Source: Sphingomonadaceae bacterium
Lineage (GTDB): Bacteria > Pseudomonadota > Alphaproteobacteria > Sphingomonadales > Sphingomonadaceae
Direction of reading: 5' to 3'
Assembly: GCA_016000085.1 (NCBI GenBank)
Contig: JAECRT010000014.1
Span: 1-64,000, forward strand
Length of the DNA stretch: 64,000 nt
The position numbers and the translations under genes are program-made. The notes under the pieces are model-generated. The model saw only the letters and a program-made list of their open reading frames with translations, was not told the origin of the DNA and made no database searches. Positions 4,152 through 62,803 of this stretch are shown piece after piece; positions within the stretch are counted from its first letter, which is position 1; the number at the start of each line of letters is the position of its first letter.

Positions 4152-4637
4152 TTAGCCAACACCATCTGTCCGCGTATCGGTGATCCGCACGACCCGGTTG
4201 CTGAACTTCACGGTACGAACCGCGAGCGAGGTTTCGATATGATAAACCCCCGTCAGCGCCAATATGTGGCCAGAAGTGACTCCATGAAAACTGTCGAGAT
4301 CATCATAGAGGCACGTCGCCATGATGTTGAACGGCCCCAATGTAATCATGACGGATTTGACCATAGGGATGTGCGCTATATCGCGAGCGATCTGACGCAC
4401 CTGAGCCACATCGGCCTGGATGGCGATAAAGGCGATATTGGTGGCTTTGTCCAGCTTGAGCCCTGTCAGCGCAGTAAAGGCGATCAGGCCATCCTGCTGC
4501 AACCGCTTGATCCGCCCACGAACCGTACCCTCATTGACGCCCAGGTCGACGGCAATCTTGCGATTGGAAACGCGGGCATCCTGCGCCAGTATCGCGATTA
4601 ACTGGCGATCCAGGTCATCGAGATCGGGTCGCTTCAT
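4152..4637 (-). CDS. Lrp/AsnC family regulator, B-type (array position 4)
   Basis: A 161-residue Lrp/AsnC protein. It has the N-terminal winged HTH (LDDLDRQLIAILAQDARVSNRKIAVDLGVNEGTVRGRIKRLQQDGLI, residues 6-53) followed by a RAM (ligand and oligomer) domain. It overlaps the preceding A-type gene by four bases (ATGA), which implies translational coupling. It resembles the B-type protein at 5252-5740 (VSNR/ISNR, EGTVRGRIKRLQ/EGTIRTRIKRLQ) more than its own upstream partner. Lrp proteins act as DNA-binding dimers or octamers that sense amino acids or small acids. Paired expression suggests it forms a hetero-oligomer with the gene at 4634-5113. It converges on the TetR gene. Confidence 0.9.
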   Translation of the reverse strand: MKRPDLDDLDRQLIAILAQDARVSNRKIAVDLGVNEGTVRGRIKRLQQDGLIAFTALTGLKLDKATNIAFIAIQADVAQVRQIARDIAHIPMVKSVMITLGPFNIMATCLYDDLDSFHGVTSGHILALTGVYHIETSLAVRTVKFSNRVVRITDTRTDGVG

Positions 4638-5113
4638 ACAAGCCTCTTTCTGTCGATCGGTGCCGTATCGAGGCCATATTTTACGATGTCGAGGCCAATT
4701 GCGGGAGTCATTGAGCGGACGCCGGACACCTGCGACAATTTTTCGGTGATGAGGGGCGACAACTCCTCCATGTCCCGCAGGGCGAGCAACAGGCTGATTT
4801 CGTAGCGGCCCGTGACGAGATGCGCGGCAAAAACCTCGCGAAAATCCGCCAGTTCTTCGGCAACCTCCAAAGCAGGCCGTCCGCTGACCTCTACTGCCAG
4901 ATGGATCAGGACATGATAGTCATGCACCGCAAAATCGGACACGGCAACGACGCGCAATACGCCCGCCTCCTCCATCCGGCGAATGCGGGTCGATACGGTC
5001 GAGGCGATCAGTTTCAGGGATTCCGCAATCTGCTGATTGGTCGCCCGGCCATTCTGCCGCAACTGTTCGACGATTTTTCGGTCGGTTTCGTCAAACGCGA
5101 ACGTCTCATGCAT
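4634..5113 (-). CDS. Lrp/AsnC family regulator, A-type (array position 3)
   Basis: A 159-residue Lrp/AsnC protein with HTH motif FDETDRKIVEQLRQNGRATNQQIAESLKLIASTVSTRIRRMEEAGVLR at about residues 7-54 and a C-terminal RAM domain (GRYEISLLLALRD). The NGRATNQ signature and the VVAVSDF segment group it with the A-type proteins at 5737 and 62021. Its stop overlaps the start of the B-type gene at 4637. A gap of 138 bp separates it from the previous pair, room for its own promoter. The effector is unknown. Confidence 0.9.
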   Translation of the reverse strand: MHETFAFDETDRKIVEQLRQNGRATNQQIAESLKLIASTVSTRIRRMEEAGVLRVVAVSDFAVHDYHVLIHLAVEVSGRPALEVAEELADFREVFAAHLVTGRYEISLLLALRDMEELSPLITEKLSQVSGVRSMTPAIGLDIVKYGLDTAPIDRKRLV

Positions 5114-5251
5114 AGGACTACTCTATTTCCCTTCCGGCAGCGGTCTTGCCAGCAAAGAAGCGGCAGGTCGAATCCAAAGCGCTTCCCGCAACGCCGCTCA
5201 ACCGATAAGCGCCGAATGGCGGATCGATGGTCTTTTGCAGGATGTCGCCCG

Positions 5252-5740
5252 TCAGTCGATGGCGGCGATGCGCGTGATTTTCGCCACACCGGCCTCATAT
5301 TTCAGATTATGTACCGAGATAGAGGTTTCCACTCGCTGGATGCCCGGCATGCTACGGATCTGTTCGACCACCAGCTCATTGAGCTGCTCGATATTGGTGA
5401 ACAGCCCCATCGCCAGCAGGTTGAAGCGACCAAGTAGCAGCACGACGCAGTTGATTTCCGGCATCATCTTGAGCCGCGCGGCGACTTCGGTGACGCGCGA
5501 AGGATCGGCGTCGATGCCGAGCATGCACAGGTTCGGCGATCCCGCCATCCGAAAATCGGTGACGACGGTGAACTGGATCAGCCCCTCATTCTGCAAGCGC
5601 TTGATGCGGGTGCGGATGGTCCCTTCCGTCACGCCCAGTTCGGCCGCGATCGCACGGTTGGAAATGCGCGCATCAAGCGCAAGCTTGCTGACGATCTTGT
5701 GATCGAGCGCGTCCAGCCGCTGCCAACTGGTATCGGTCAC
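5252..5740 (-). CDS. Lrp/AsnC family regulator, B-type (array position 2)
   Basis: A 162-residue Lrp/AsnC protein. The winged HTH is LDALDHKIVSKLALDARISNRAIAAELGVTEGTIRTRIKRLQNEGLI (residues 9-56) and the RAM domain follows, with the GRFNLLAMGLF turn replacing the usual G-hydrophobic-DLLL signature. It overlaps the upstream A-type gene by four bases (5737-5740), so the two are translationally coupled. It belongs to the same subgroup as the gene at 4152-4637, indicating that the pair has been duplicated. It probably acts with its partner on nearby catabolic promoters; that is inference from position. Confidence 0.9.
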   Translation of the reverse strand: MTDTSWQRLDALDHKIVSKLALDARISNRAIAAELGVTEGTIRTRIKRLQNEGLIQFTVVTDFRMAGSPNLCMLGIDADPSRVTEVAARLKMMPEINCVVLLLGRFNLLAMGLFTNIEQLNELVVEQIRSMPGIQRVETSISVHNLKYEAGVAKITRIAAID

Positions 5741-6219
5741 AGCGGCGCCACGTTAAATTCATATTTCGCAATGTCGACGGCGATCCCGGCGTCGATCTGG
5801 GCTACGCCGGCGATGCTGCCGATATGGTCGTAGAGAAATTGCTGCACTTCGGAAAAGTCATGCAGAGCGACGAGCAGTTCGATGTCGTGACGCCCATTCA
5901 TGATGTTGACGCTCAGCACTTCGGGGAATTTGGCGAGGTCATGGCCGACCGCCTGAACGCTGCGCGCCTGCACCTTTACGCCGACGGCGATGATGACATT
6001 ATAGCCCAGCGCGGCAAAATCCGTGACGGCAACCACACGCATGGCGCGCGCATCCTCCATCTTTTGCAAACGGGCCGAAACGGTCGCGGCGGTTATCGAC
6101 AATTGTTTGGCAATATCCTGATTGGTCGTGCGGCCATTGGTACGAAGAATATCGATGATGCTATTATCAAGCGCATCCAAGGAAGACGGTGTCAGCGACC
6201 GCCCGCTTCTAATCTGCAT
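5737..6219 (-). CDS. Lrp/AsnC family regulator, A-type (array position 1)
   Basis: A 160-residue Lrp/AsnC protein: HTH LDALDNSIIDILRTNGRTTNQDIAKQLSITAATVSARLQKMEDA (residues 14-57) and a RAM domain with the typical GRHDIELLVALHD signature. It is the first gene of the four-gene regulator array. By my hand alignment it is about three quarters identical to the solo gene at 62021-62503, and both share the ends MQIRSGR and EFNVAPL. It lies 178 bp downstream of the thiolase gene on the same strand, so it may have its own promoter in that gap. Confidence 0.92.
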   Translation of the reverse strand: MQIRSGRSLTPSSLDALDNSIIDILRTNGRTTNQDIAKQLSITAATVSARLQKMEDARAMRVVAVTDFAALGYNVIIAVGVKVQARSVQAVGHDLAKFPEVLSVNIMNGRHDIELLVALHDFSEVQQFLYDHIGSIAGVAQIDAGIAVDIAKYEFNVAPL

Positions 6220-6397
6220 TCCCTACCGCCTCCATTTGCGGGCCAAGCATAGCGCGCAGAAATGCAGCGCGCCAGACTTGATGCTCGTTCATCGCGCAAC
6301 CGTGGAAGCATCAAGCCGCCAGGCCCAGCCGGGAAACAGCCTCGGTTCTGGCATAACATGGCGGCCATTGTTGTTCTTCACTGCTGCATAGGTCGGC

Positions 6398-9889: not shown

Positions 9890-10921
9890 GTGACAAAAGA
9901 TACGATGATCGGGGTGGATTTGGCAAAGAATGTCTTTCAGCTGCACGGCGCGTCGATGACGGGGCAGATGCAGTTCCGTAAGAAGCTATCACGACAAGGT
10001 TTTTTCAAGTTCATGGCCGAGCAGCCTCCAGCGGTGGTCGTAATGGAGGCCTGTGGCAGCGCGCATTACTGGGCCCGCGAGATGACCCGGCTTGGCCACG
10101 AGGTGAAGCTGATTGCGCCGCATTACGTGAAGCCGTTTGTGAAACGGCAGAAGAACGACGCGGCAGATGCCGAGGCCATCGTGATCGCGGCCCAACGGCC
10201 TGAAATGCGCTTCGTCGATCCGAAGTCTGCAGAGCAGCAAAGCCGGGCTATTTTGTTTCGGGCTCGAGAACGGCTCGTCCACCAGCGCACCGAACTGGTC
10301 AACGCCCTCCGGGCTTGCCTCTATGAATATGGCCACGTTGTTCCTCAGGGGATCCATCAGATCAGGCGGATCGCAGAGATCCTGGACGCACCGAACAGCG
10401 ACTTGCCCGATTTGATGCGCGAGGAATGCCGAGATTTGCTTGAACAGATTGCCGAAAAGACAGTCCGCATCGATGCCCGGACTGGCAAGATCAAGGCACA
10501 GACGGCTGAAGGCGACATGGCGCGGCGCTTGCAGACAATCCCCGGTGTTGGACCTTTGACGGCCTTGGCCGTCGAAGCCTTCGCTCCGCCGATGGAAAAC
10601 TTCCGGTGTGGCCGCGACTTCGCTGCCTGGCTCGGTCTCGTTCCCCGCCAGTTCTCATCCGGCGGCAAGGAGCGGCTCGGGCGCATTTCGAAGGCAGGAC
10701 AGCCCGATATCCGCAGGCTGCTGATTATCGGGGCGATGTCGCGCCTGAACTGGCTGGGCCGCAAATCAATCCCGGAAGGTTCGTGGCTGGCGCGCATAGC
10801 TGCGCGAAAGCCAAGGATGATCGTGGCGATCGCTTTGGCCAACAAGATGGCGCGGACGATCTGGGCCATGCTGACGAAGAATGAGGATTATCGAGTTCCG
10901 GCGCAGGTGCCAGCAGCATGA
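9890..10921 (+). CDS. IS110-family transposase (DEDD recombinase)
   Basis: A 343-residue, apparently intact transposase. The N-terminal RuvC-like DEDD domain shows Asp10 (IGVDLAKNVFQLHG), Glu53 (VVVMEACGSAHYW), Asp90 and Asp93 (KNDAADAEAI). The C-terminal Tnp_IS116/IS110/IS902 domain shows IPGVGPLTALAVEAF and FAAWLGLVPRQFSSGGKERLG, which carries the conserved serine region. In this family the recombinase works with a structured RNA encoded at the element end. The start used is GTG at 9890 with GGAAAGGA upstream; ATG at 9905 is the alternative. No frameshift or internal stop, so the element could be active. Confidence 0.95.
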   Translation: MTKDTMIGVDLAKNVFQLHGASMTGQMQFRKKLSRQGFFKFMAEQPPAVVVMEACGSAHYWAREMTRLGHEVKLIAPHYVKPFVKRQKNDAADAEAIVIAAQRPEMRFVDPKSAEQQSRAILFRARERLVHQRTELVNALRACLYEYGHVVPQGIHQIRRIAEILDAPNSDLPDLMREECRDLLEQIAEKTVRIDARTGKIKAQTAEGDMARRLQTIPGVGPLTALAVEAFAPPMENFRCGRDFAAWLGLVPRQFSSGGKERLGRISKAGQPDIRRLLIIGAMSRLNWLGRKSIPEGSWLARIAARKPRMIVAIALANKMARTIWAMLTKNEDYRVPAQVPAA

Positions 10922-60360: not shown

Positions 60361-61446
60361 CTACACCGATCTTTTGCCAAGCCATGCGTCGATGGAGGGC
60401 CAAAGACGCCTTAACGCGCTGGCGCCCGCCACAACACTTACATGGCCTCCTTTGGTCAATATCTCTTCGCAATCGGTCGATCCGGTCATCGTCAGCAAGG
60501 GAGCTGCCGCCTCTCGCGCAACGACATGATCATGTTCAGCGACGATGCTGAGGATCGGCACCTTAATCGCCTTGAGGTCGACCTGCCTCTCTCCTACCTT
60601 CATCCGGCCGTTGAACAGCGCGTTATCCCACAGCAACTGTTTCACAATTTGCTGGAAATAGCGTCCCGGCATTGGCAGCGTTTCAGCCGCCCAGCGATCG
60701 AACATGCGATAGGATTTGACGAAATCGTCGTTCCACATATTGGTCCACAACTGTATCCTGCCCGCGGTACGGTTTGCCGGTCGCATAAGGTCAAAGGCGC
60801 CGAGCATCAGTTCGGGCGGAATGACACCCAATGAAGCAACGAGCTGATCGACATCGAAATGCGATTTGTCCGCCCAGGCTCGAAACAGGCGCATATGCTG
60901 AAAATCGATGGGCGTGGTGAAGCAGAGAAGGTTGGCGATCCGGCCAGGTTCGGCCAACGCAGCATAAAGCACCGCCAAGGTGCCACCCATGCAATAGCCG
61001 CTGAGCGTCAGTTCATCTTCGCCGGTTTCCCGTGCGATGCGTTCTGCACATTCAACAATGAAATCGAGTACATAATGCTCAAGCCCCAGATCGGCTTCGT
61101 CAGCCCGGGGTGGCATCCAGTCGAGCAGATAGATGTCGTAACCGCGCTGGAGCATGAACTCAAAGAAGCTCTGCCCGCTCGCCAGATCGAAGATATAGCC
61201 CCGATTGCTCGGTGGCGAGATCATCAGCAAAGGCACCCGGTACACCTCGTCAGCGACGGAGCGGTATCGATATAACGCCATGGTTCCGCGACGGGCCAAC
61301 AGATCGCTCGCCATCGCACCAACCGTTTGCCGCGGCGCTGTGAGGAATTCCAGGCCATTGATGTTGCGTTGAACGGCCCGCTCAATTTCATGACGAACAC
61401 GTTCTGCCACCGAGCCTGCCTCGCGAGAAGCGGACGCTTCGCTCAC
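60361..61446 (-). CDS. Class III-type polyhydroxyalkanoate synthase (PhaC-like)
   Basis: A 361-residue alpha/beta hydrolase-fold polymerase. The lipase-like box is GYCMGG with nucleophilic Cys152, and Asp306 (AEHDHVV) and His335 (GGHVSVV) complete the triad. The length is that of class III/IV synthases, shorter than class I enzymes. It polymerises hydroxyacyl-CoA into PHA, normally with a PhaE or PhaR subunit. GTG 61446 overlaps the stop of the upstream small gene (GTGA). It shares the operon with that partner and a GNAT gene. A non-polymerising hydrolase role cannot be excluded. Confidence 0.9.
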   Translation of the reverse strand: MSEASASREAGSVAERVRHEIERAVQRNINGLEFLTAPRQTVGAMASDLLARRGTMALYRYRSVADEVYRVPLLMISPPSNRGYIFDLASGQSFFEFMLQRGYDIYLLDWMPPRADEADLGLEHYVLDFIVECAERIARETGEDELTLSGYCMGGTLAVLYAALAEPGRIANLLCFTTPIDFQHMRLFRAWADKSHFDVDQLVASLGVIPPELMLGAFDLMRPANRTAGRIQLWTNMWNDDFVKSYRMFDRWAAETLPMPGRYFQQIVKQLLWDNALFNGRMKVGERQVDLKAIKVPILSIVAEHDHVVAREAAAPLLTMTGSTDCEEILTKGGHVSVVAGASALRRLWPSIDAWLGKRSV

Positions 61447-61805
61447 GCGGCCGGTTCCGCGGGTTTGCGGGTACGTCGCGGGCGATTAGCTGATGAAGGG
61501 CGCGCCTTTTCTTCTCCAGCGGCGGCCTCGACGAGTCTGTCGATCTTCTGCTCAATACGATCCAGCCTGTCGAGCGCCTCGCCCATTTGGACTTGCGTCG
61601 CAAATTGCATCGAGCGCACGAGGCGATCGAGATTATCTTCCACACCCTTGCGCGTTGCCAAGGACAGCTTTGTTGCCTTGCTCATCGAACCCGCGAAAGC
61701 CTCGTTGGTACTGAGCTTGGTCGAGAGATCGTTAAGCTGTCGCTCCCACAGGGAGATCATATTTTGCCAAGCCGCGACAGGATCAAAATCGTTCTGTTTT
61801 GCCAT
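61443..61805 (-). CDS. Small PhaE/PhaR-like subunit or phasin-like protein
   Basis: A 120-residue, highly helical protein: DPVAAWQNMISLWERQLNDLSTKLSTNEAFAGSMSKATKLSLATRKGVEDNLDRLVRSMQFAT, then a coiled-coil-like MGEALDRLDRIEQKIDRLVEAAAGEE, and a basic tail (RPRRTRKPAEP). It overlaps the PhaC-like gene by four bases. The W-x5-W-x-R start and amphipathic helices fit the PhaE/PhaR partner of class III/IV PHA synthases, but it is far shorter than the usual PhaE (about 350 residues) or PhaR (about 200). The name rests on linkage as much as on sequence. Confidence 0.75.
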   Translation of the reverse strand: MAKQNDFDPVAAWQNMISLWERQLNDLSTKLSTNEAFAGSMSKATKLSLATRKGVEDNLDRLVRSMQFATQVQMGEALDRLDRIEQKIDRLVEAAAGEEKARPSSANRPRRTRKPAEPAA

Positions 61806-61909: not shown

Positions 61910-62020
61910 ATACATATTGAACTGATGAGATTGGCGGCGTTCTGGATTGCCGGACATCGCGCGCGAGCTCCACGACAGCATGAGCCAGCTTATCCAGGCA
62001 CGCCAAGCCTTCTTGCAGGC

Positions 62021-62503
62021 TCATAGAGGCGCAACATTGAACTCGAATTTCACGATATCGACCGCAATTCCCGGCGTTATGTGCATGACGCCTTCTATCC
62101 CGGCAATATGTTCAAACAGAAATGTCTGCACTTCGGAAAAGTCGTGCAGCGCTACCAGAAGTTCAATGTCATGATCACCGTTCATGATGTTTACACTGAG
62201 CACTTCGGGTAATTCGGCCAAATATCGCCCAACATCGCGGACATTGCGTCCCTGTACTTTTACACCCAGGGCAATAATGACGTTATAGCCATGGGCGGAA
62301 AAATCCGTGACCGCCACGACACGCATCACCCGCGCATCCTCCATTTTCTGAAGCCGTGCAGATACGGTTGCCGCCGTTACCGACAGTCGCTCAGCAATTT
62401 CCTGGTTTGTCGCACGACCATTAACCCGTAATATGTCAATGATGCTGGTATCGAGATTGTCCAGGGATGGGGTTCCCGATGTCCGCCCGCTTCTGATCTG
62501 CAT
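62021..62503 (-). CDS. Lrp/AsnC family regulator, solo A-type
   Basis: A 160-residue Lrp/AsnC protein: HTH LDNLDTSIIDILRVNGRATNQEIAERLSVTAATVSARLQKMEDA and RAM domain with NIMNGDHDIELLVALHDFSEV. By hand alignment about 122 of 160 positions match the array gene at 5737. Unlike the array copies, it has no B-type partner after it; a 59-bp inverted repeat and the PHA operon follow. It may therefore act alone or join B-type subunits made from the 4-6 kb array. Ligand unknown. Confidence 0.92.
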   Translation of the reverse strand: MQIRSGRTSGTPSLDNLDTSIIDILRVNGRATNQEIAERLSVTAATVSARLQKMEDARVMRVVAVTDFSAHGYNVIIALGVKVQGRNVRDVGRYLAELPEVLSVNIMNGDHDIELLVALHDFSEVQTFLFEHIAGIEGVMHITPGIAVDIVKFEFNVAPL

Positions 62504-62803
62504 TTAGCCCCATCCTTCCCCGAACCTGCCCCCGCCACGCGAACGCTTATGACAATTTGCCATAAGCCCATTCCGGTGGCCGAGCACGCACTAACCCTGT
62601 CCCTTTTGCGCAGGAAACTCGGATTTCGTCAAATATTCTACGATGAGGCAACATTGTAACAGTTTTATAAGCACAAATGCGTACTTTAACGCGAACATTA
62701 ATCCGCATGTGCGACAGGGGAATTTAAGAAAGAGCTACAGCACGCAGATCATAATGCACCGCTATATGGACTCGCTGATCGTGTCACATGCCAGCTTGGC
62801 GAA
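62504..62803. other. Intergenic region upstream of the solo Lrp gene
   Basis: About 300 bp, noticeably more AT-rich than its surroundings (for example ATGCGTACTTTAACGCGAACATTAATCC). The track's 62-residue ORF here has no family features or ribosome site. It likely carries the Lrp promoter; no tRNA or repeat was recognised. Confidence 0.4.

Follow-up and report, generated by a model that had tools for sequence, protein, structure and literature searches.

Genes for two diverged types of Lrp/AsnC regulator, A and B, form an established, conserved paired module. The conserved unit is the A-B pair and not the four-gene array in which two such pairs stand one behind the other in the window, the 64,000-nucleotide stretch of DNA that was analysed here (Sphingomonadaceae bacterium, contig JAECRT010000014.1). 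The pair recurs in 123 distinct loci, so the pairing goes beyond chance. How the two proteins work is a separate matter. Our best reading, which we consider probable, is that A and B act together as one mixed regulator, a heteromer.

The A-B pair in the window and across genomes

The array lies on the minus strand at 4152-6219, in the order A1-B1-A2-B2 (Table 1). All four proteins carry an AsnC-type HTH in the N-terminal half (PF13404, 45-50 bits against a cut-off of 27) and a RAM/AsnC ligand domain in the C-terminal half (PF01037, 36-48 bits against a cut-off of 25; both from Pfam). Proteins of the same type are more alike (39% identity for A1/A2, 36% for B1/B2) than partners are (27% for A1/B1, 19% for A2/B2). 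Hence the A-B-A-B typing proposed in an earlier sequence-only reading is correct, with ORFs, domains and identities in agreement, and so is its remark that the B genes are closer to each other than to their A partners. The same reading had each pair overlapping by ATGA. An overlap of 4 nt is present in both pairs, but it is ATGA for A2/B2 only; for A1/B1 it is GTGA.

Table 1. Positions of the array genes and of related features in the window.
Feature	Position	Strand	Description
A1	5737..6219	-	Lrp/AsnC-type regulator, 160 aa, class-1 A
B1	5252..5740	-	Lrp/AsnC-type regulator, 162 aa, class-1 B; GTG start inside A1 stop
A2	4634..5113	-	Lrp/AsnC-type regulator, 159 aa, class-2 A
B2	4152..4637	-	Lrp/AsnC-type regulator, 161 aa, class-2 B; ATGA overlap with A2
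A1 leader, promoter-proximal	6220..6283	-	S. lactosutens orthologue (L038) 81.5% identical over 65 nt
MFS gene 3'-end remnant	5128..5197	-	80-87% over 56-70 nt to L002, L115, L117, L156
A5	62021..62503	-	class-1 A without intact B; 76% to A1
B5 relic, shortened	61950..62024	-	ATGA overlap with A5; about 25 codons remain
GTACGCAT	62677..62684	-	variant of candidate operator TTACGCAT, 181 nt upstream of A5

The motifs that had been read as marks of the two types hold up across the 123 distinct pairs. Of the A proteins, 74% have TNQ, 2% have SNR and 0% have EGT[VI]R; for the B proteins the shares are 1%, 98% and 97%, respectively. The columns that determine the type include positions in the HTH (G and Q in A, A and R in B).

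A survey of sphingomonad genomes for the overlapping pair, as the sequence-only reading had suggested, finds it repeatedly. Over all fetched loci there are 148 A-B pairs (123 distinct). A comes before B in every one, and the start codon of B lies 4 nt inside the stop of A in 120. Loci were recruited mostly via A; a reverse search with B across the family served as a check. The 301 genomes of the same family that were searched are a sample with MAGs among them, in which weak members are lost to thresholds; here the A profile matches 57 genes, spread over 36 genomes, and the B profile 52 genes in 35, all within the 36 carriers of A. In the 36th genome (G318) a weaker B adjoins its A (locus L151). 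The objection that A and B might usually be found apart does not hold, as B sits directly downstream of 54 of the 57 family A genes. Because A and B are almost never apart, a coupled A/B module is supported. Beyond the family, relatives thin out, with 3 further genomes among 385 in the class and 1 among 399 in the phylum outside the family. Further relative loci occur in Nitrospirillum, Azospirillum, Caulobacter and Acidocella.

The genome of the window has 14 RAM-domain matches, made up of four A-B pairs (eight genes), one orphan A and five others. Two of the pairs lie outside the window, on contig C31 (L001:5983-6950) and contig C2 (L002:6188-7149). The remaining five Lrp genes are unpaired and have no Lrp neighbour.

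In a single tree of both types, for which other Lrp proteins serve as the outgroup, A forms one clade (support 0.93) and B a separate one (support 0.97). The distances within the A tree are strongly correlated with those within the B tree (r=0.967; permutation maximum 0.22). Separate clades together with this correlation indicate that the genes of a pair travelled and duplicated together. Matching trees are also expected from plain linkage, and thus they support co-inheritance, not contact.

One mixed regulator or two

The A-B pair is almost always side by side and sits in catabolic clusters, which suggests a joint, mixed regulator. In the model we propose, A would supply one Lrp/AsnC-type subunit and B, translationally coupled to it, a second and diverged subunit. 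Through the RAM domains, the two would form a mixed dimer or a higher oligomer. This A/B complex would recognise an operator close to the pair and to the adjoining catabolic operon, and a metabolite of the pathway, acting as ligand, would switch the operon through the complex. The translational coupling, the ligand and the regulated genes are parts of the model that we infer.

Alternatively, A and B could be two separate homo-oligomeric regulators that are co-expressed for the same cluster, for example an activator and a repressor, or two regulators that respond to different metabolites. This is the main rival to the heteromer, and we consider it rather unlikely. Most studied Lrp proteins are homo-oligomers, from dimer to hexadecamer, that are made from one gene. 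HTH and RAM domains are complete in both A and B, hence each could form a homo-oligomer. Furthermore, the different residues at HTH positions would fit different DNA targets. However, two separate regulators do not readily account for a near-absolute co-occurrence with fixed order and overlap over wide divergence, nor for a natural ORF in which two Lrp units are fused.

This fused ORF encodes 326 aa with two full Lrp units (L118:2430-3410, on G001:C1, a genome of the genus). In the tree its second half groups with B (0.97); the first half has no clear place there and is not clearly A. The ORF is a possible natural A-B fusion. It was seen once, and a search of 301 genomes at E 1e-35 yields no further fused A-B proteins. 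A known fusion of this type is the siroheme decarboxylase NirDL (PDB 4ch7).

The coevolution analysis is underpowered. In a mean-field DCA of the 123 concatenated pairs, the top-20 inter-protein coupling is 1.19 compared to 0.90-1.00 in within-clade shuffles, and at an effective number of 68 the couplings within and between the proteins rank about as by chance and make no structural sense. Single-chain AlphaFold models reach a pLDDT of 76 and 83 and a pTM of 0.51. In the model of B1 the predicted order of strands and helices fits, and its RAM domain matches DM1 at a TMt of 0.93. The best Foldseek matches are PH0140, PH1519, NMB0573 and E. coli AsnC; siroheme decarboxylases match much more weakly.

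Catabolic clusters, orphan genes and a candidate operator

Judged by the position of the pairs, their most likely role is the control of acyl-CoA or steroid-like catabolic clusters. The pairs are often found on plasmids of sphingomonads. On annotated plasmids the neighbours are genes for acyl-CoA dehydrogenases, CoA transferases, SDRs, flavin reductases, 4-hydroxy-2-oxovalerate aldolase (dmpG), alkene reductase and TonB receptors. On pSHV1, one pair is near transposases instead of catabolic genes. The window itself encodes a thiolase, a PQQ dehydrogenase, TonB receptors, Rieske oxygenases and acyl-CoA dehydrogenases.

Class-2 pairs belong to a conserved cluster with an amidohydrolase-like gene, an SDR, an MFS transporter and two acyl-CoA dehydrogenase-like genes (names read from the sequence, not all of them run against the family library). 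This cluster resembles the bile-salt side-chain cluster of Sphingobium sp. Chol11 and Caenibius tardaugens. The carriers of pairs include steroid degraders by name or description, namely Chol11, S. estronivorans and Croceicoccus estronivorus. In the bile-salt cluster of Chol11, two contiguous Lrp/AsnC genes (NCHOL11_RS15865/RS15860) have been described in one sentence, which ties them to amino acid metabolism and defines no A/B family (PMC12882949). The likeness to our set is at the level of the strain, which has three A-B pairs here (L039, L042, L114). Around L114, the genes present fit a side-chain degradation cluster.

Unpaired genes are few: seven A and four B over the fetched loci. Every orphan-bearing genome that was checked (family genomes, G010 and strain ES2-1) has an intact pair as well. 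In the window, A5 is followed by the relic of a B gene. Over 156 nt, the DNA of the A5/B5 junction is 74% identical to that of S. lactosutens L044. B is complete in L044, and both loci have the same FAD monooxygenase-like gene as a neighbour. The relic implies that A5 lost its B. Hence any partner of A5 would now come from another locus. With tblastn no B relics are found behind orphan A genes; that of A5 is visible at the DNA level alone. Downstream of the B5 relic lie a small gene (61443-61805) and then a class III PhaC-like polyhydroxyalkanoate synthase gene (60361-61446), which scores below the cut-off of its family.

Orphans also occur elsewhere. On plasmid pNL2 of N. aromaticivorans (L167), a distance of 7 kb separates the two A-B pairs of a catabolic cluster. 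Plasmid p1 of Novosphingobium sp. ES2-1 (L168) has the same kind of cluster, in which the first pair has lost its B, and 6 kb lie between the orphan A and an intact pair. In genus g64, four genomes have a B gene without an A (L146-L149).

An orphan A in genomes that keep B elsewhere, and an A5 minus its own B, are circumstantial evidence for exchangeable subunits. In the strongest form of this idea, A and B would be obligate heteromers whose paralogues mix, for example A5 with B1 or B3. The result would be combinatorial regulators that act on many catabolic clusters through asymmetric operators. We hold this to be improbable.

One short word may serve as an operator. Of 28 class-1 A or orphan B genes, 11 have TTACGCA in the preceding 300 nt, where 0.9 are expected, a count that overstates independence because the sequences are related. 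Its place is mostly 172-185 nt before the start of class-1 A genes. On contig C31, the class-1 pair has TTACGCAT in its leader (L001:5780-5983). TTACGCA(T/A) lies upstream of class-1 A in L001, L009, L039, L041, L046, L153 and L159, and a similar word lies about 100-120 nt upstream of the orphan B genes in L146-L149. The word is absent from the A1 and A2 leaders in the window, and no dyad partner is clearly conserved. We treat TTACGCA as a candidate operator.

Origin of the array and comparison with known systems

The four-gene array is found in the genome of the window and in no other genome examined. The gap between B1 and A2 is 138 nt long and holds the 3'-end tail of an MFS transporter gene. 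This remnant matches four loci (L002, L115, L117, L156) at E 1e-13 to 4e-17, and in the same four the MFS gene lies directly upstream of an A2-type pair. In S. lactosutens, both types of pair are on one contig, on the same strand and in the same order, about 30 kb apart. The MFS tail in the gap and the spacing in S. lactosutens indicate that the array consists of two old pair classes that became juxtaposed. The class-1 pair (A1B1) and the class-2 pair (A2B2) were joined by a rearrangement, for instance a deletion, and the MFS remnant marks the junction that made the array. An IS110-family transposase gene is located close to the array (9890-10921) and is a possible agent of rearrangement.

The pairs in the window have closer relatives elsewhere in the genome than each other (A1-A3 83%, A2-A4 84%; 78-84% overall). 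The earlier suggestion that a coupled pair was duplicated as a unit is therefore right for the early divergence of the two pair classes and wrong for the local array. That the array is a recent local tandem duplication without functional meaning is extremely unlikely: four similar genes do follow each other on one strand, but the pairs are just 36-39% identical, their near relatives are elsewhere, and a foreign gene tail separates them, so that junction and trees rule it out.

Lrp/AsnC (feast/famine) regulators share the HTH_AsnC and RAM domains with the proteins of the array. They come from a single gene, whereas here two diverged subunits are nearly always linked as a pair. Mixed assemblies of Lrp-type proteins do exist. 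FL11 and DM1 of Pyrococcus horikoshii form a hetero-octamer in vitro (PMC2995911). However, DM1 lacks an HTH and is a RAM protein on its own, while A and B both have an HTH and are encoded together. Lrp-fold proteins that occur as a pair or as a fusion are also known from AhbA/AhbB and NirDL, and the AhbA/AhbB heterodimer is proven (PMC4145669). As with A and B, the two diverged Lrp-fold proteins of AhbA/AhbB and NirDL/NirGH stem from adjacent or fused genes. In contrast to A and B, which lie in catabolic clusters, they are enzymes of haem or haem d1 synthesis.

This likeness, together with their appearance among the fold matches, raises the question of whether A/B merely resembles a regulator and could in fact be a siroheme decarboxylase-type enzyme (AhbA/AhbB, NirDLGH). 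There is hardly any chance of this. The NCBIfam models of AhbA/AhbB give 20-27 bits for A1 and B1, far under the required 125-140, and do not appear among the matches of A2 and B2. HTH_AsnC is well above its cut-off, and that of NirdL-like_HTH is not reached. The neighbourhoods examined are catabolic, with haem genes absent from the neighbour tables. Such an identity is largely refuted.

Lrp/AsnC proteins are commonly regarded as homo-oligomers encoded by single genes. If the heteromer is true, A and B, widespread and almost never split, would represent a family of bacterial regulators that combine two different Lrp subunits. The pairs sit in often plasmid-borne clusters for steroid-like and acyl-CoA catabolism, the control of which is poorly known. 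With this pair, the old question of whether Lrp proteins form hetero-oligomers can be put to a direct test in bacteria.
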